In this document: piece by piece, positions 1-64,000 of the stretch | How the letters are laid out: each line of letters opens with the position of its first letter | How positions within the stretch are numbered: position 1 is the stretch's first letter | NCBI RefSeq assembly: GCF_009811555.1 | Contig: NZ_BLIN01000003.1 | Span: 124,001 to 188,000 of the forward strand | DNA: 64,000 bases | Origin: Streptomyces caniferus | GTDB taxonomy: Bacteria; Actinomycetota; Actinomycetes; Streptomycetales; Streptomycetaceae | Direction of reading: 5' to 3' | Notes under the pieces: generated by a model | The model's input: only the letters and a program-made list of their open reading frames with translations | Databases searched by the model: none | What the model was told of the DNA's origin: nothing | Translations under genes and position numbers: made by a program

Positions 1-80
1 GGGTGCACGACATCGCGGTGGCCGCGGCGGTGCACGCCGCGGCCGTGGAGCGGGGTCTCGGACTGGCGCTCCCGCGCTGA
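1..80 (+). CDS. 3' end of a gene that starts before the window
   Basis: Reading from base 3, 25 codons run in frame to TGA at 78-80. They give an Ala/Val-rich amphipathic tail with the pieces VHDIAVAAAV and GLGLALPR. A perfect hairpin follows 18 bp later, as expected for the end of a transcription unit. The tail vaguely resembles the C-terminal helix of bacterial malic enzymes, but the fragment is too short for a family call. Confidence 0.5.
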   Translation, partial: VHDIAVAAAVHAAAVERGLGLALPR

Positions 81-55682: not shown

Positions 55683-56174
55683 CTACTGCTGGAGTACCAG
55701 ATCGCGCTCGTACCAGGTGCCCGGCTTACCGCCGAGTTCGGCCGGGCCGACCGGGACGAACCCGGCCTTGACCAGCACCTTCTGGGACGCGACGTTCCCG
55801 TGGGCGGTACCCGCCCGCAGTGTGCGCAGCCTGTACCGCGCTGCCGCCAGACGGCACAGCTCCCGAACGGTCGCGGTCGCCAGACCACGGCCGGCCACGT
55901 GCTGTGCGACCCGGTAACCAAGTTCGGCAGTACCGTCCTCGAGGTCGTACAGGTTGAACCGGCCCAGAACCGAGCCGTCCTCGGCGACGAGCACGTGGAA
56001 AGCGCAGCTGCCGGCCTCCTGCTCAGCCAGCAAGGCGTTGTACCGGTCGGTGAACCGGTCGAAGTAGTCGTCGCCACGGTCGGAGACCGACGCGGCGAAG
56101 TAGGTGCGGTTCGCCAGCTCGAAAGCCAGGACCGCCGGGGCATGACCAGCATGCAAGCGCTTCAGCTCGGGCAC
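55683..56174 (-). CDS. GNAT N-acetyltransferase
   Basis: 163 aa from GTG 56174. RimJ/RimL-like layout: VLAFELANRTYFAASVSDRGDDYFDRF, then VLVAEDGSVLGRFNLYDLEDGTAELGYRVAQHVAGRGLATATVRELCRLA (acetyl-CoA loop), LRTLRAGTAHGNVASQKVLVKAGFVPVG. The acceptor is unknown. It is the last gene before the long gap upstream of the NRPS cluster and points away from it. Confidence 0.9.
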   Translation of the reverse strand: MPELKRLHAGHAPAVLAFELANRTYFAASVSDRGDDYFDRFTDRYNALLAEQEAGSCAFHVLVAEDGSVLGRFNLYDLEDGTAELGYRVAQHVAGRGLATATVRELCRLAAARYRLRTLRAGTAHGNVASQKVLVKAGFVPVGPAELGGKPGTWYERDLVLQQ

Positions 56175-57008: not shown

Positions 57009-59558
57009 ATGACGGGAAAGTCGTTTGAAGCGTTGCCCCCCGAGCTGGGGGACTCCCCCACGGCCCGGGGCGGCATCGCCGTCCCGACGGCCGGGGCCGA
57101 GGAGCTTCTCGCCGCGGTGCTGGCGGATGTCGTGCGCGTCGGTCAGGTATCGGTCGACAGCCACTTCTTCGACGAGCTGGGCGCCGACTCGATGGTGATG
57201 GCGCAGTTCTGCGCGCGGGTCAGGAAGCACGCGGATCTGCCGTCGATATCGATGAAGGACGTCTACCGGCATCCGACGATCAGAAGCCTGGCGACGGCGC
57301 TCGCGGCCTCCGTACCCGCCGCCTCCGCGCAGTCGCCGGGAGCCGTACCCACCGCCCCCGCCGCATCGCCGGCCGCCGCGTCGGCGGCTCCGACGGGCAC
57401 GCCGCACTACGTCCTGTGCGGAGTGCTGCAGGTCCTGACGTTCCTCGGTTACTCCTACCTCGTCGCACTCGTCGCCGCCAGGGGCTACACCTGGATATCC
57501 GCCGGTTCCGGCGTGTTCGGCGTGTACCTGCGCGCGGTGCTGTTCAGCGCGGCGAGCTTCGTGGGTCTGGCCGTCTTCCCGGTCCTGGTGAAGTGGATAC
57601 TCATCGGCCGGTGGAAGCCCCGGCAGATCCGTATCTGGAGCCTCACGTACGTCCGCTTCTGGGTCGTCAAGACGCTGATCCGTTCCGATCCCCTGGTCCT
57701 GTTCGTGGGTTCGCCGCTCTATGCGCTCTACCTCAGGGCGCTGGGCGCGAGGATCGGGCGCGGTGTGCTGATCCTCTCCAGGAACGTCCCCGTGTGCACC
57801 GACCTGCTCGCCGTAGGCGACGGCGCGCTCGTCCGCAAGGACGCGTACTTCAACGGCTATCGGGCCGAGGCCGGCCTGATCCAGACCGGCACGGTGACCC
57901 TGGGGAAGGACGCGGTCGTCTGCGAGGCCACCGTGCTCGACATCGACACCTCACTGGGCGACGCGTCCCAGCTCGGCCACGCCTCCTCGTTGCACAGCGG
58001 ACAGGCGGTGCCCGACGGTGAGCGCTGGCACGGGTCGCCGGCGCAGCGCACCGATGTGGACTACCAGGCGGTGGACCCCGTTCCGTGCGGTGCCACGAGG
58101 CGGGTGCTGCACAGCGTCCTGCAACTGCTGACCGTGCTCCTGGTGTACGTACCGCTGGCGATCGGCGCCGTGGGCCTGCTGCTCGCCGCGGCCCCGCAGC
58201 TCGCCGCCGCCCTGGAACCGGGGCCCGCGGCCCTCACGAGCTGGACGTTCTACGCCGACGCCCTGGCGTTCTCGGTCGTCGTGTTCTTCGGTGTGCTCCC
58301 CCTCGGTCTCCTGCTCCTGGTCACGGTCCCCCGCCTGCTGAACCGGACCATCACACCGGGCACGGTCTATCCCCTGTACGGCTTCCACTACGGCGTGCAC
58401 CGGGCGATCACGTTCATGACCAACAGGCGCTCCCTGATGCGGCTGTTCGGCGACAGCTCCTGCATCGTCCACTACCTGCGGTGCCTCGGGTACGACCTCT
58501 CGCGGATCGAGCAGACCGGGTCGAACTTCGGCACGGAGGTCAAGCACGAGACCCCGTACCTGAGTTCCGTGGGGAGCGGAACGATGGTCGCGGACGGGCT
58601 GTCGATCAACAACGCCGACTACTCCAGCACCTCGTTCCGTGTCTCGCGGACGGCGATCGGGCCACGCAACTTCCTCGGGAACCGGATCGCCTACCCCTCG
58701 CGGGGCAGGACGGGCGACAACTGCCTGCTCGCGACGAAGGTCATGGTCCCCGTCGACGGCGAGGTCCGGGAGGGCGTGGGGCTGCTGGGCTCGCCCAGCT
58801 TCGAGATTCCGCGGTCGGTCCAGCGCGACAGCAGCTTCGACGGGCTGAAGAGCGAGGAGCAGTTGCGCCATCGCCTCCCCGCCAAGAACCGGCACAACGC
58901 AACCACCATGGGGTGGTACCTGCTGGTCCGGTGGGTCTACTTCTTCCTGGTCACCCTGCTCGTCTCGGCCGCCGCCGACCTCTACGCCCCGTTCGGCGCG
59001 GCGGCGATCGCGCTGGCCAACGTCCTCGTCTTCCTGTTCACCGCCGGGTACTACGTGCTGATCGAACGTGCTGTCACGGCCTGCCACCCCACGGACCCGC
59101 TGTTCTGCTCGATCTACGACCTCCGCTTCTGGCGGCGTGAACGCTACTGGAAGGTGCCGTCGGAGACGTACCTGCGGATATTCGACGGTACGCCGTTCAA
59201 GAGCGTGATCTGGCGGATGCTGGGTGTCCGGATCGGCAGCCGGGTCTTCGACGACGGCTGCTATCTGACCGAGCGGACGATGGTCACCATCGGGGACGGC
59301 TGCACCCTCAACATGGGGAGCGTCGTCCAGTGCCACTCGCAGGAGGACGGCACCTTCAAGTCCGACCGCAGCACGATCGGTTCCGGATCCACGATCGGTG
59401 TCGGCGCCTTCGTGCACTACGGCGTGGCGATCGGCGACGGCGCCGTGCTCGCCCCCGACTCCTTCCTCATGAAGGGCGAGGTCCTCCCGCAGCGTGCGCG
59501 GTGGGGAGGAAATCCGGCCCGGCAGATCCGCCGGGGCGACGGCGGGGAGTGGAGGTAG
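57009..59558 (+). CDS. carrier domain fused to Pls/PosA-type membrane peptide polymerase
   Basis: 849 aa from ATG 57009 with GAGGGAG upstream. Residues about 30-100 are a peptidyl-carrier domain with phosphopantetheine Ser61 in ELGADSMVM. After an Ala/Pro linker come six membrane helices in three pairs (first near 136-200, second near 370-450, third near 640-700). Each pair is followed by a left-handed beta-helix or acyltransferase-like domain with hexapeptide features (IGRGVLILSRNVPVC; YDLSRIEQTGSNFG; VRIGSRVFDDGCYLTER and GSGSTIGVGAFVHYG). This is the C-terminal two-thirds of epsilon-poly-lysine synthetase (Pls), where the tandem domains form isopeptide bonds at the membrane. The adenylation domain normally at the N-terminus is missing; the next gene, 5 bp downstream, supplies one. 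Confidence 0.88.
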   Translation: MTGKSFEALPPELGDSPTARGGIAVPTAGAEELLAAVLADVVRVGQVSVDSHFFDELGADSMVMAQFCARVRKHADLPSISMKDVYRHPTIRSLATALAASVPAASAQSPGAVPTAPAASPAAASAAPTGTPHYVLCGVLQVLTFLGYSYLVALVAARGYTWISAGSGVFGVYLRAVLFSAASFVGLAVFPVLVKWILIGRWKPRQIRIWSLTYVRFWVVKTLIRSDPLVLFVGSPLYALYLRALGARIGRGVLILSRNVPVCTDLLAVGDGALVRKDAYFNGYRAEAGLIQTGTVTLGKDAVVCEATVLDIDTSLGDASQLGHASSLHSGQAVPDGERWHGSPAQRTDVDYQAVDPVPCGATRRVLHSVLQLLTVLLVYVPLAIGAVGLLLAAAPQLAAALEPGPAALTSWTFYADALAFSVVVFFGVLPLGLLLLVTVPRLLNRTITPGTVYPLYGFHYGVHRAITFMTNRRSLMRLFGDSSCIVHYLRCLGYDLSRIEQTGSNFGTEVKHETPYLSSVGSGTMVADGLSINNADYSSTSFRVSRTAIGPRNFLGNRIAYPSRGRTGDNCLLATKVMVPVDGEVREGVGLLGSPSFEIPRSVQRDSSFDGLKSEEQLRHRLPAKNRHNATTMGWYLLVRWVYFFLVTLLVSAAADLYAPFGAAAIALANVLVFLFTAGYYVLIERAVTACHPTDPLFCSIYDLRFWRRERYWKVPSETYLRIFDGTPFKSVIWRMLGVRIGSRVFDDGCYLTERTMVTIGDGCTLNMGSVVQCHSQEDGTFKSDRSTIGSGSTIGVGAFVHYGVAIGDGAVLAPDSFLMKGEVLPQRARWGGNPARQIRRGDGGEWR

Positions 59559-59563
59559 CAGCC

Positions 59564-62500
59564 ATGACGACGCCTCTGAAGCGCAACGGGGAAGTCCGGC
59601 AGGAGGTGCCCGCCGCCGGCGGGTTCGCCACCGTGCCGCGATGGACCCGCACCCCGGTTCCGGGCGCCGCCGCATACGAGACGGTGCTGCCCGAGGGCCT
59701 CCTGCCGGCACTGGACCACTGGGCGCAGGAGTGGGGCGTCACGCTCGACTCGGTGCTGCTGGCCGCGCACGCCAAGGTGCTCGGCGCGCTGACCGGTGAA
59801 CAGACGGTCGCGACCGGCTACACGGCCGTGGCGGGCGGCAGTCCGGTGACCTGCCGGCTGACGACCGCGGCGGAGACGTGGCGGACGCTGGTGTGCGACA
59901 CGCATCAGGTCACGTCTCAGCTGCCGGAGCCGCAGGGCTTCCCGGGCGATGGCCTCGGGAGGCCGCCGGACCCCGCCGCGCCGTTGCCCGAGACGGTGTT
60001 CGATCCGACCGGTGCCGATACCGAAGGTGTCACAGGTGCCGGCGAGGGCACCGTGCTGCGGGTGGCGGTGGTGCGCCGAGACGGCGGACACCTGCTGCGG
60101 CTGCAGTACCGGACCGAGGTGCTCGACGAGGACTGTGCCGCGAGGATCGCCGGCTACCACCTCACCGCGCTCACGCTGCTCGCCGCCGATCCGGAAGCGG
60201 CGCACGGGCAGCAGAGCCTGTTGTCCCCCGAGGAACTCCACCTCCAGCTCGAAGGACTCGCCGGCCCGCAACGGACGCTGCCGGAACAGCGGTTCCACGA
60301 GCTGTTCGAGCAGCGCGTGCGGGCGCACCCGGACGCCGTCGCGGCCGTGCACGGCGACCGGCAGTGGACGTACCGGGAACTCAATGCCCGCGCCAACCGG
60401 CTGGCCCACGCGCTGCCGGCCGCCGGACTGCACCGGCAGGACGTGGTCGCGGTGGTGACCGAACGCAACCTGGACTGGCTGGCCGCCGTCCTCGCGGTCT
60501 TCAAGGCCGGGGGCACGTACCTGCCCATCGAGCCGCACTTCCCCGCCGACCGGATCGCCGCCATGCTCTCCCGCGCCTCGTGCGGGCTGGTGCTGACCGA
60601 ACCCGGCAGCACCGCCACCCTCGACCGGGCCCTGGAGTCGCTGCCCGGGGTCCACAGGCTCTTCCTCGACGCGGCGTACGAGGGCAGCCGCGACGAGAGC
60701 GACCCCGGTGTCCCCGTCGCCCCGGACGACCTCGCCTACATCTTCTTCACCTCCGGCTCCACTGGGGAGCCCAAGGGCGCGATGTGCGAGCACGAGGGCA
60801 TGCTCAACCACCTCTACGCCAAGATCGACGACTTGGGGATCGCCGAGGGGCAGGTCGTCGCCCAGACCGCGCCCCAGTGCTTCGACATCTCCCTGTGGCA
60901 ACTGCTCTCCGCGCTGCTGACCGGCGGACGGACCCTGTTGGTGGAGCAGGAGGCCGTTCTGGACGTCGGGCGGTTCCTCGACACGATCGTCGACGGCGGG
61001 GCCGGCGTGCTCCAGGTGGTGCCGTCCTACCTGGATGTCGTCCTGTCCTTCCTGGAGCAGCACCCCCGCCAACTGCCCGCCCTGCGCTGTGTGTCGGTGA
61101 CGGGCGAGGCGCTGAAGAAGGAGCTCGTCGAGCGCTGGTTCGCGACCGCACCCCGGATCAGACTGGCCAACGCCTACGGGTTGACCGAGACCTCCGACGA
61201 CACCAACCACGAGGTCATGGACCGGGTGCCGGCCGGCGACCGGATCCCGCTCGGCCGGCCCGTCAACAACGTGCACGTCTACCTCGTCGATGCGCACCTG
61301 TCGCCGGTGCCGCTCGGCGCGCCCGGTGAGATCGTCTTCTCCGGGGTCTGCGTCGGCCGCGGGTACGTCAACGACCCGGAGCGCACCCGGCTGGTCTTCA
61401 TGGCGGATCCGTACCGTCCGGGCCGCAGGCTCTACCGGTCCGGCGACTACGGCCGGTGGCTGCCGGACGGAAAACTGGAGTTCCTCGGCCGCCAGGACAC
61501 CCAGGTCAAGATCCGTGGTTTCCGGATCGAGACGGGCGAGATCGAGAACACCCTGCTGCGGGTGCCCGGCATCCGCGACGGTGCCGTGGTGGTCTCCCCA
61601 CGGTCCGGCCACAGTCAGCGGCTGGTGGCCTTCTACTCCGGTCCGCGTCCGCTGGAGACAGGTGCTCTGCAGGACCTGCTGAGCCGGTCGCTGCCCGCGT
61701 ACATGGTCCCGTCGGCCTTCCACTGGCGGGAGAGCCTCCCGCTGACGGCCAACGGAAAGATCGACAAGAAGGCGCTGGCCGCCCTCGCCGAAGGAGGCGA
61801 AACCGCCGAGGACGGCCACCATGCGCTCGGCACACCGACCGAGCAGCGGCTCGCCGCCGCATGGGCCGAGGCGCTCGGTATTCCGGAGAACCGGATCGGA
61901 GGCCAGGACGACTTCTTCGACCTCGGCGGCACCTCGCTCTCGGCCGTACGGGTCGCGATCCGCCTGGACCGCGTGGTCTCCCCCAAGGACCTCCTGCAGC
62001 ATCCGGTCCTCGCCGACCTGGCCCGCCTGGTCGACAGCCGTTCCACGGACGGCTCCGCGCAGCCGCGGACGCTGCCGCGGCCCGAGCACAGCAACCCGGT
62101 GCACAGCACCGGTCGGCTGCCCGCCGACGCAGACCGAAAGGACACCACGATGGCCCCCTCACTCCCGACCTCACTGCCCGACCTGGAGTCCCCGGCCGGT
62201 CGGACGCCGATGCTACGGCTCCACACCACCGTCGACGCGGCGAGCTGGGTGGCCGAGCACCGCGACGCGCTGCGCGCCGCCGTTCTCGAACACGGGGCAC
62301 TCCTCGTCCGCGGCCTCGGGCTCCAGCACGCGGCCGAGGTCGGGGCGGTCCGTGAGCAGCTGGACCTCCTTCCGGTGGCGGACAAGGAATCCTTCGCCCC
62401 CCGGGAGACCTACTCCGAGGGGGTCTACTCCTCGTCCAAGTGGCCGCCGAACCAGCCGATGTGCATGCACCACGAACTGAGCTACCGGCTCGAGTTCCCC

Positions 62501-63154
62501 GGCCTGATGCTGTTCGCCTGCCTCGGCGCACCCACCGAGGGAGGAGCGACCGGGGTCGCGGACTCCACGGCGGTGCTCGACGCGCTGCCGCCCGAGCTCA
62601 CCGAGCGGTTCGAGCGGGAGGGCTGGCTGCTCACCCGCAGCTACCACGACGAGATCGGTGCCTCCTTGTCGGAGGCGTTCGGCACCGACGACCGGAGCGC
62701 CATCGAGGACTACTGCCGCGCCCACGCCATCGAGTTCGCGTGGCAGCCCGACGGCGGACTGCGCACGCGACAGCGCCGCAGTGCCGTGGTGCGCCATCCG
62801 GTCAGCGGGCGACGCTGCTGGTTCAACCAGATCGCGTTCCTCAACGAGTGGACGATGGCGCCCGAGGTCCGGGAGTACCTGATCGACGAATACGGCGCCG
62901 ACGGGCTGCCGTTCAACACCCGCTACGGCAACGGCGACCCCCTCACGGAGGACACCGTCCAGCTCCTCAACAAGGTCTACGAGGCGCACACCCTGCGTCG
63001 GCCCTGGCAGGCCGGTGACCTGCTGCTCGTCGACAACGTCCGCAGCGCGCACAGCAGGGAGCCCTTCGAAGGGCCGCGGGAGGTGGTGGTGGCGATGGCC
63101 GAGCCGCTGCGCCTGGCCGACTGCTCGCCGACCTTCGAGGTGACCGTCCCGTGA
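59564..63154 (+). CDS. NRPS (partial C, A, PCP) fused to Fe(II)/2-oxoglutarate dioxygenase
   Basis: 1196 aa from ATG 59564 (GGAGG upstream). Residues about 20-225 resemble only the C-terminal lobe of a condensation domain; no HHxxxDG is present. The adenylation domain (about 244-735) has FTSGSTGEPKG (about 394), AYGLTETSDD (about 536) and GKIDKK (about 731). Reading the pocket by eye gives D-I-W-Q-S-T-A-D-D-K; the two acidic residues fit a basic substrate such as diaminopropionate. The carrier domain has LGGTSL with Ser791. From about 863 a TauD/SyrP-like oxygenase follows, with HHE iron ligands (His969, Glu971) and distal His1163. ATG 62150 with AAAGGA upstream could also start the oxygenase separately. 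It likely activates, holds and hydroxylates the monomer for the membrane polymerase. Confidence 0.9.
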   Translation: MTTPLKRNGEVRQEVPAAGGFATVPRWTRTPVPGAAAYETVLPEGLLPALDHWAQEWGVTLDSVLLAAHAKVLGALTGEQTVATGYTAVAGGSPVTCRLTTAAETWRTLVCDTHQVTSQLPEPQGFPGDGLGRPPDPAAPLPETVFDPTGADTEGVTGAGEGTVLRVAVVRRDGGHLLRLQYRTEVLDEDCAARIAGYHLTALTLLAADPEAAHGQQSLLSPEELHLQLEGLAGPQRTLPEQRFHELFEQRVRAHPDAVAAVHGDRQWTYRELNARANRLAHALPAAGLHRQDVVAVVTERNLDWLAAVLAVFKAGGTYLPIEPHFPADRIAAMLSRASCGLVLTEPGSTATLDRALESLPGVHRLFLDAAYEGSRDESDPGVPVAPDDLAYIFFTSGSTGEPKGAMCEHEGMLNHLYAKIDDLGIAEGQVVAQTAPQCFDISLWQLLSALLTGGRTLLVEQEAVLDVGRFLDTIVDGGAGVLQVVPSYLDVVLSFLEQHPRQLPALRCVSVTGEALKKELVERWFATAPRIRLANAYGLTETSDDTNHEVMDRVPAGDRIPLGRPVNNVHVYLVDAHLSPVPLGAPGEIVFSGVCVGRGYVNDPERTRLVFMADPYRPGRRLYRSGDYGRWLPDGKLEFLGRQDTQVKIRGFRIETGEIENTLLRVPGIRDGAVVVSPRSGHSQRLVAFYSGPRPLETGALQDLLSRSLPAYMVPSAFHWRESLPLTANGKIDKKALAALAEGGETAEDGHHALGTPTEQRLAAAWAEALGIPENRIGGQDDFFDLGGTSLSAVRVAIRLDRVVSPKDLLQHPVLADLARLVDSRSTDGSAQPRTLPRPEHSNPVHSTGRLPADADRKDTTMAPSLPTSLPDLESPAGRTPMLRLHTTVDAASWVAEHRDALRAAVLEHGALLVRGLGLQHAAEVGAVREQLDLLPVADKESFAPRETYSEGVYSSSKWPPNQPMCMHHELSYRLEFPGLMLFACLGAPTEGGATGVADSTAVLDALPPELTERFEREGWLLTRSYHDEIGASLSEAFGTDDRSAIEDYCRAHAIEFAWQPDGGLRTRQRRSAVVRHPVSGRRCWFNQIAFLNEWTMAPEVREYLIDEYGADGLPFNTRYGNGDPLTEDTVQLLNKVYEAHTLRRPWQAGDLLLVDNVRSAHSREPFEGPREVVVAMAEPLRLADCSPTFEVTVP

Positions 63155-63186
63155 ACACCATCCGCTCCACCGCAACGGAGTCCGCC

Positions 63187-64000
63187 ATGACCGCATCGCC
63201 CCTCACCGTGCCCCCGTTCGCGGTGATCTCAGGAGTTCAGGTCCGCACCGCGCTGCAAGGCCGCGAGAAACACATCGTGGCGGTGGTCGAGGAGACCTAC
63301 CGGCTGCACGGTGCCGGTGAATCGGTGAACCCGCCGTCCTCGTTCCTCCGGTTCCCCGACCGCACGACGTCGCGGATGATCGCGCTGCCCGCCTCGATCG
63401 GCGGCCGGGCGCGGGTGGACGGGCTGAAGTGGATCTCCAGCTTCCCGGAGAACGTGGCGGCCGGCATCCCCCGGGCCTCCGCGGTCCTGATCCTCAACGA
63501 CCATGTCACCGGCTACCCGTTCGCCTGCCTGGAGAGCTCGATCATCAGCGCCACCAGAACCGCCGCGTCGGCGGCGTCGGCGGCCGACTGGCTCAGCCGC
63601 GGCCGCCCGCGCCCGGTGCGCGTCGGGTTCTTCGGGGCGGGCCTGATCGCCCGCTACATCCACACGTTCCTGGAAGGCACCGGCTGGTCGTTCGACGAGA
63701 TCGGCGTGCACGACCTGTCCGCCGACAGCGCGGCCGGCTTCCGCCTGCACCTGGAGCAGTCCGGCACCGCGGGCCGGATCACCGTGCACGAGAGCGCCGA
63801 GGAGCTGATCCGCTTCAGCGACCTCGTGGTCTTCGCCACCGTGGCCGGTGAGCCACATGTCGACGACCCCGCGTGGTTCGCCCACAACCCGGTGGTCCTG
63901 CACGTGTCGCTGCGCGACCTCGCGCCGCAGGTCCTGCTGGCCTCGACCAACATCGTCGATGACGTGGAGCACTGTCTCCACGCCGGCACTTCGCCGCATC
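63187..64000 (+). CDS. sbnB: SbnB-like N-(2-amino-2-carboxyethyl)-L-glutamate dehydrogenase, partial
   Basis: 271 codons to the window edge from ATG 63187 (GGAG upstream). GTG 63151, overlapping the NRPS stop, is an alternative start. It has the ornithine cyclodeaminase/mu-crystallin fold with NAD-binding FFGAGLIARYIHTFL. SbnB-type features include SVNPPSSFLRFPDR, GLKWISSFPENVAAGIPRASAVLILND, LESSIISATRTAASAASAADWL and HVSLRDLAPQVLLASTNIVDDVEHCLHAGTSPH. Known SbnB enzymes cleave N-(1-amino-1-carboxyl-2-ethyl)-glutamate, made by the SbnA synthase, to give L-2,3-diaminopropionate. That predicts an sbnA-like gene just outside the window and diaminopropionate as building block. Confidence 0.9.
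   Translation, partial: MTASPLTVPPFAVISGVQVRTALQGREKHIVAVVEETYRLHGAGESVNPPSSFLRFPDRTTSRMIALPASIGGRARVDGLKWISSFPENVAAGIPRASAVLILNDHVTGYPFACLESSIISATRTAASAASAADWLSRGRPRPVRVGFFGAGLIARYIHTFLEGTGWSFDEIGVHDLSADSAAGFRLHLEQSGTAGRITVHESAEELIRFSDLVVFATVAGEPHVDDPAWFAHNPVVLHVSLRDLAPQVLLASTNIVDDVEHCLHAGTSPH

Follow-up and report, generated by a model that had tools for sequence, protein, structure and literature searches.

How does a Pls/PosA-type polymerising domain obtain its substrate when the protein that carries it has no adenylation domain of its own? The question is raised by three adjoining genes at the right end of a 64,000-nucleotide stretch of Streptomyces caniferus DNA (contig NZ_BLIN01000003.1, positions 124001-188000; host genome 9.15 Mb), which we call the window. 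They encode a carrier domain joined to a Pls/PosA polymerising domain (gene 1), an adenylation-carrier-dioxygenase protein (gene 2) and an SbnB-like enzyme (gene 3). We put a probability of roughly 0.5 on the proposal that genes 1 and 2 are a two-protein descendant of a single-chain adenylation-carrier-polymerisation (A-T-Pls) synthetase of the poly-diaminopropionate or poly-diaminobutyrate type, with the loading, oxidation and polymerisation steps set out below.

Gene 1 (57009..59558, plus strand, 849 amino acids) runs from an ATG at 57009 to a stop codon at 59556-59558. Its carrier domain, T1 (57105..57302, plus strand; PF00550/PP-binding, residues 33-98), has a GADSM motif that includes the phosphopantetheine serine. 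The polymerising domain (57417..59519, plus strand) matches TIGR02353, the Pls/PosA family, over residues 137-837 at 765.7 bits, against a cut-off of 423.1. Six strong hydropathy segments (mean at least 1.89) form three pairs (139-157/176-194, 376-394/420-438 and 638-656/667-685); by the same simple method, weaker peaks at 229-247 and 796-814 likewise rise above the 1.4 threshold. A first-pass annotation of this DNA, which had described a carrier fused to the six-helix, three-domain part of a Pls/PosA-like protein, is confirmed by these matches and pairs. The Pfam search of the gene 1 protein returned no AMP-binding match. The suggested comparison with Pls and PosA homologues also found 52% identity to two complete A-T-Pls proteins, both with the adenylation (A) domain code DFECLSVVTK. 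Judged by its sequence, gene 1 is a true member of the Pls/PosA family. Searched against the host genome, gene 1 returned itself, carrier domains and a single weak hit to its final 100 residues, and nothing else.

The polymerising domain is well conserved in relatives of the split kind. The T1 serine is present in 96 of 101 aligned split rows, the other five being gaps. Among the 116 columns that are invariant in 12 complete Pls proteins, 82 are kept in at least 90% of the split rows and 17 in under half, so the split polymerising domain seems constrained like that of complete Pls.

Gene 2 (59564..63154, plus strand, ATG 59564, 1196 amino acids) begins after a gap of 5 bp. Pfam places in it an A domain with the code DIWQSTADDK (60305..61783, plus strand; PF00501 and PF13193; AMP-binding at residues 248-601, AMP-binding_C at 659-732), a second carrier domain, T2, with a GGTSL motif (61844..62032, plus strand; PF00550, PP-binding at 761-823), and a TauD/TfdA-type Fe(II)/2-oxoglutarate dioxygenase domain (62234..63094, plus strand; PF02668, TauD at 891-1177). 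All 107 TauD rows have the HxE, the distal His and the Arg, and the HxE and distal His align with clavaminate synthase; we take these residues to be the iron triad and the Arg to bind 2-oxoglutarate. The structure predicted for the TauD domain was set aside because of its low quality (mean predicted local distance difference test score, pLDDT, 55.2).

The domains and spacing of this adenylation-carrier-dioxygenase protein agree with the first-pass annotation, which overlooked the N-terminus. There, about 235 residues resemble the C-terminal lobe of a condensation domain and are probably its C-terminal half, with the N-terminal lobe missing (59564..60268, plus strand; PF00668 positions 231-277 only). 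The PF00668 score of gene 2 (27.2) is below the curated cut-off of 30.6; a relative (L027) scores above it at 34.8, and one of five tested gave no match. A predicted structure of the half-condensation, A and carrier part (mean pLDDT 73.2) is best matched by multi-domain synthetases, many of which contain condensation and adenylation domains; the match listing gives no aligned ranges and therefore adds little to the half-condensation reading.

Gene 3 is sbnB-like (63187..64000, plus strand) and runs past the window, ending at 64224 in window numbering; it may start at GTG 63151 or ATG 63187. The sequence was extended past 64000, as first suggested, and an sbnA-like gene is directly next (64309-65415; L009 12309-13415). 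Scored against the NCBI curated equivalog families for SbnB and SbnA (TIGR03944, TIGR03945), the complete SbnB reaches 407.6 bits (cut-off 326.9) and SbnA 381.9 bits (cut-off 349.95). The identification of gene 3 as SbnB-like therefore stands, and a diaminopropionate supply is supported by two consecutive genes above curated cut-offs. A second sbnA/sbnB pair in the host (L011 8113-15941) adjoins a two-module synthetase, whose second A domain, read by eye, matches DIWQSTADDK at positions 3 (Trp) and 6 (Thr). A weaker SbnB-family match (193.9 bits, below the cut-off) spans the left edge of the window (contig 123076-124074, window 1-74).

The split form is common, not rare, in the genus. TIGR02353 matches above the cut-off occur in 110 of 199 same-genus genomes; 13 of 14 control genomes have matches below it, so only matches over the cut-off were counted. 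Among the 150 matches listed, 72 have an open frame of at least 1200 amino acids and 78 a shorter one that could not encode a complete Pls (the 78 include gene 1 itself and two truncated matches). The earlier expectation of rarity does not hold for the split form.

Do these short Pls genes keep the same company? We examined 27 short loci (from 25 genomes) and 12 long ones without using TauD as bait; the loci were chosen by hand, mostly from assemblies of few contigs, and are not a random sample. None of the 27 short Pls proteins has an A domain match. Adjoining them are an A-T protein and SbnA in all 27 loci and TauD and SbnB in 26 each, with SbnA divergent and upstream in a few. At the same thresholds and within 18.5 kb, none of these four partners was found at any of the 12 complete-Pls loci. 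The adjacency of partner genes strengthens the proposed separation of adenylation from Pls, as do the decayed A domains described below, and the proposed oxygenase link is upheld by TauD.

A second scan used a collection in which each species is represented by a single genome, searched it with the carrier-TauD region of gene 2, and kept the best 80 of the 384 stretches that hold a relative; the parts were scored by tblastn with fixed thresholds. All five are present in 66 of the 80 stretches (Pls 77, A-T 74, SbnB 72, SbnA 70, and TauD, the bait, 80). Most are from Streptomyces; other hosts are Amycolatopsis, Lentzea, Kibdelosporangium, Kutzneria, Actinoplanes, Actinacidiphila, Pseudonocardia, Blastococcus, Nakamurella, Actinomadura, Acidobacteria and Pseudogulbenkiania (L025, where the SbnA-like match is only 38%). 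Several of the 14 incomplete stretches end close to the missing gene, and four (L031, L039, L078, L085) have another layout. In that layout the Pls protein has one to three carrier domains, TauD is 69-72% identical, and there are a free carrier of about 90 amino acids and a free A protein of 531 amino acids, with the code DASVATMRSK in all four (from an alignment at 26-27% identity). Fusion of TauD to A-T is seen in three of 107 TauD genes (the window, L021 and L113), and in most relatives examined TauD is a separate gene; a protein search lists further fused A-T/TauD proteins, most of about 1050-1240 amino acids.

The A domains suggest where the split form came from. We read their codes at the PheA positions. 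The 102 codes from A-T proteins, a table that counts the window domain twice, comprise DIWQSTADDK (92), DIWQSTTDDK (7), two single variants and one incomplete code. The 11 readable codes of the 12 complete Pls are DAESIGTVVK in nine, whose loci are without partner genes, and DFECLSVVTK in two, which have intact A3, A8 and A10 motifs. In four relatives of the split kind an A core is still present ahead of Pls on the same protein, with the A10 lysine missing and the A3 motif damaged (DFECLFVVT-, DFECLCVVT-, DPECLSVLS- and DCQCLSVVT-); P0040, a near-copy of the first, gives the same picture by eye. We read these cores as remains of a lost Pls-borne A domain. Position 2 of the code is reported to be Ala in poly-lysine synthetases and Phe in those for poly-diaminopropionate or poly-diaminobutyrate, and position 3 a conserved Glu throughout polymer synthetases (PMC10522769). 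The decayed codes, two of which keep both Phe and Glu, thus point to an ancestor of the diaminopropionate/diaminobutyrate type. In gene 2 itself, Asp at positions 8 and 9 would make an acidic pocket suited to a basic residue. Systems that take diaminopropionate include CmnA-A1 and module 3 of SulM. For DIWQSTADDK, and for similar codes associated with diaminobutyrate, the open-access literature gave no match.

Domains, gene order, conservation, the link between A-less Pls and its partner genes, and the decayed A domains are read from the sequences; from them we infer activation of diaminopropionate, oxidation of the carrier-bound residue, cross-protein loading, 2-oxoglutarate coupling and polymer formation, as follows. 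SbnA and SbnB would make L-2,3-diaminopropionate and release 2-oxoglutarate; the Staphylococcus aureus enzymes yield both products, and other substrates are reported for the S. albulus pair of this type (PMC4668381). The A domain of gene 2 would activate an amino acid and load its own T2, and probably also T1 of gene 1 in trans. Because the T1 serine and the polymerising domain are conserved, T1 is probably loaded; with no working A domain on the Pls chain, loading must come from another protein, for which the adjacent A-T protein would be the obvious candidate. The TauD domain may oxidise the residue tethered to T2, consuming the 2-oxoglutarate set free by SbnB; alongside this possible coupling we note P0151, a 687 amino acid protein in which TauD is joined to a domain that shares 78% identity with the window SbnB. 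The membrane-bound Pls domain would then join residues into an oligomer or polymer.

Several observations weigh against this proposal. The gene 2 code has Trp and not Glu at position 3, which breaks the published pocket rule for polymer synthetases, and only two of the four decayed codes have both Phe and Glu, while one has neither. Three SbnB genes of the host genome score above the cut-off, and other pathways may therefore draw on diaminopropionate. Some relatives lack the supply genes: both Acidobacteria stretches (L023 and L029) are without SbnA and SbnB, and in the four stretches of the second layout the free A protein that accompanies Pls and TauD is unrelated, and no SbnA or SbnB passes the thresholds within the stretch (in L078 an SbnA match of 50 residues lies at the end). 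One of the 27 short loci (L111) lacks TauD and SbnB, with acetate kinase and pyruvate kinase genes coming next. An unconstrained tree of 114 rows groups both complete DFECLSVVTK proteins among the split rows (support 94-95). On the other side, in favour of the proposal, in a hand-thinned set of 50 the tree with all split rows together is 51 log units better and is not rejected (p-AU 0.954), and a single origin of the split rows is therefore allowed, not proven. On chemical grounds, oxidation at the beta-carbon of diaminopropionate would threaten the amine needed for the isopeptide bond. Finally, against the proposal, T2 is followed by a thioesterase in 45 of the 102 A-T relatives (with a GHSSG motif in 42; one was tested against Pfam), an arrangement also compatible with releasing one residue at a time as a monomer.

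Two alternatives take up these points. In the first, the A domain activates some other amino acid X, TauD hydroxylates X on T2, and free diaminopropionate is the acceptor, giving X(OH)-diaminopropionate or a mixed oligomer and no homopolymer. The departure of the gene 2 code from the published polymer-synthetase type favours it, as does the use of one TauD family both in sbn-linked loci and in the four loci whose A protein differs. The mode of action proposed for known Pls enzymes, in which a tethered residue is added to a free acceptor, also speaks for it. The ancestor to which the decayed A domains point, and a pocket with two Asp besides the first that would suit a basic residue, speak against it, and we regard this alternative as somewhat unlikely.

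The second alternative, which we consider unlikely, involves no polymer: the modified residue made on T2 is released as a small molecule or moved once by gene 1 to another acceptor. An A-T protein with an oxygenase and a thioesterase is a known route to free modified amino acids, and the thioesterases of the relatives fit it, against which the Pfam search of the window protein found no thioesterase match in gene 2. A single transfer is conceivable because the Pls domain contains beta-helices of the hexapeptide acyltransferase type; gene 1 has a Hexapep match, and the polymerising domain of PosA has been modelled with beta-helices (PMC10522769). The retention of Pls-invariant columns across the split rows argues for a polymerising function instead. 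That gene 1 is merely an ordinary acyltransferase-like protein unrelated to Pls, as its weak matches to hexapeptide acyltransferases might suggest, is contradicted by the 765.7 bits across the whole TIGR02353 domain and the 52% identity to complete A-T-Pls proteins.

The first-pass annotation had proposed looking for export and immunity genes. Among the neighbour families scanned, which were part of those in the 80 stretches, no transporter or immunity family was shared by the loci. ABC-transporter ATPases occur in eight of the 80 stretches, mostly away from the gene set, and a GNAT acetyltransferase family in seven; in the window, a GNAT gene (55683-56174, minus strand) lies upstream of and divergent from gene 1. 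The amidase family of the gene after SbnA recurs in only one other locus of the 80 (L043) and was therefore left outside the gene set. An extracytoplasmic function (ECF) sigma family is present in 16 of the 80 stretches and an anti-sigma family in 10 (one member of each was tested); neither was seen beside the window genes. In six loci (L049, L069, L075, L076, L117 and L119) a phosphopantetheinyl transferase family adjoins SbnA (the L049 member was tested), with the ECF sigma and anti-sigma families after it. A second family of pyridoxal phosphate enzymes stands beside the set in seven non-Streptomyces loci (L015, L016, L017, L018, L020, L022 and L026); its sole tested member, from L017, most resembles threonine synthases. 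In 10 of 12 loci (L120-L129) the gene after the complete Pls belongs to an M1-peptidase family (two members tested), which also precedes the split set in L032, L050, L055 and L093.

What would the split form mean for the family? Tentatively, and with more doubt than conviction, we suggest that about half of the Pls-family genes of the genus form an undescribed branch whose product, an oxidised polymer of diaminopropionate, would represent a new natural polymer class; a second protein would do the loading, and the enzyme pair responsible for the monomer would also supply the oxygenase with 2-oxoglutarate. A common branch with its own monomer supply and oxidising step, and no product found in the open-access literature, is a direct lead to a new class of polymer or peptide. 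The decayed A domains suggest a route from a single-chain to a two-protein synthetase, which could be useful for engineering Pls towards new monomers. The suspicion that the split, oxygenase-linked form is undescribed has held so far: the open-access PMC literature, represented mainly by titles and the starts of abstracts, yielded no description of it, and the family papers describe single-chain enzymes. Within the same literature, the entries on TauD with sbn genes, on non-alpha poly-amino acids (NAPAA) and on TIGR02353-type enzymes offered two papers for TIGR02353, both on complete synthetases, and no split form, and a group of 11 papers contains no mention of TauD.

Parts of this arrangement are found in known systems. 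The TauD domain is like the clavaminate-synthase-like TauD/TfdA dioxygenases, with HxE, distal His and Arg aligned and 1y0z (At3g21360) and 9yut as its best solved relatives; it presumably also resembles SyrP-type hydroxylases. Pls (epsilon-poly-lysine) and PosA (poly-ornithine) share the TIGR02353-type domain and the three pairs of membrane segments, and differ in being single chains with their own A domain and Glu at code position 3 (PMC10522769). According to the same source, six diamino-acid homopolymers are known besides its own, and a diaminopropionate polymer with a comb-like structure is cited. Capreomycin CmnI is likewise a carrier protein without an A domain, onto which diaminopropionate is loaded by the A domain of another protein, CmnA-A1; it has an ordinary condensation domain in place of the Pls domain (PMC12400406). 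Closest in its parts is the poly-L-diaminopropionate system of S. albulus PD-1, where the synthetase and NjxA/NjxB provide the same Pls-type polymerising domain, carrier and SbnA/SbnB-type diaminopropionate supply. In PD-1 a single 4,338-bp gene encodes the A, T and polymerising domains and the available text mentions no oxygenase, whereas here the A domain is on a second protein together with TauD and all the genes adjoin (PMC4668381).

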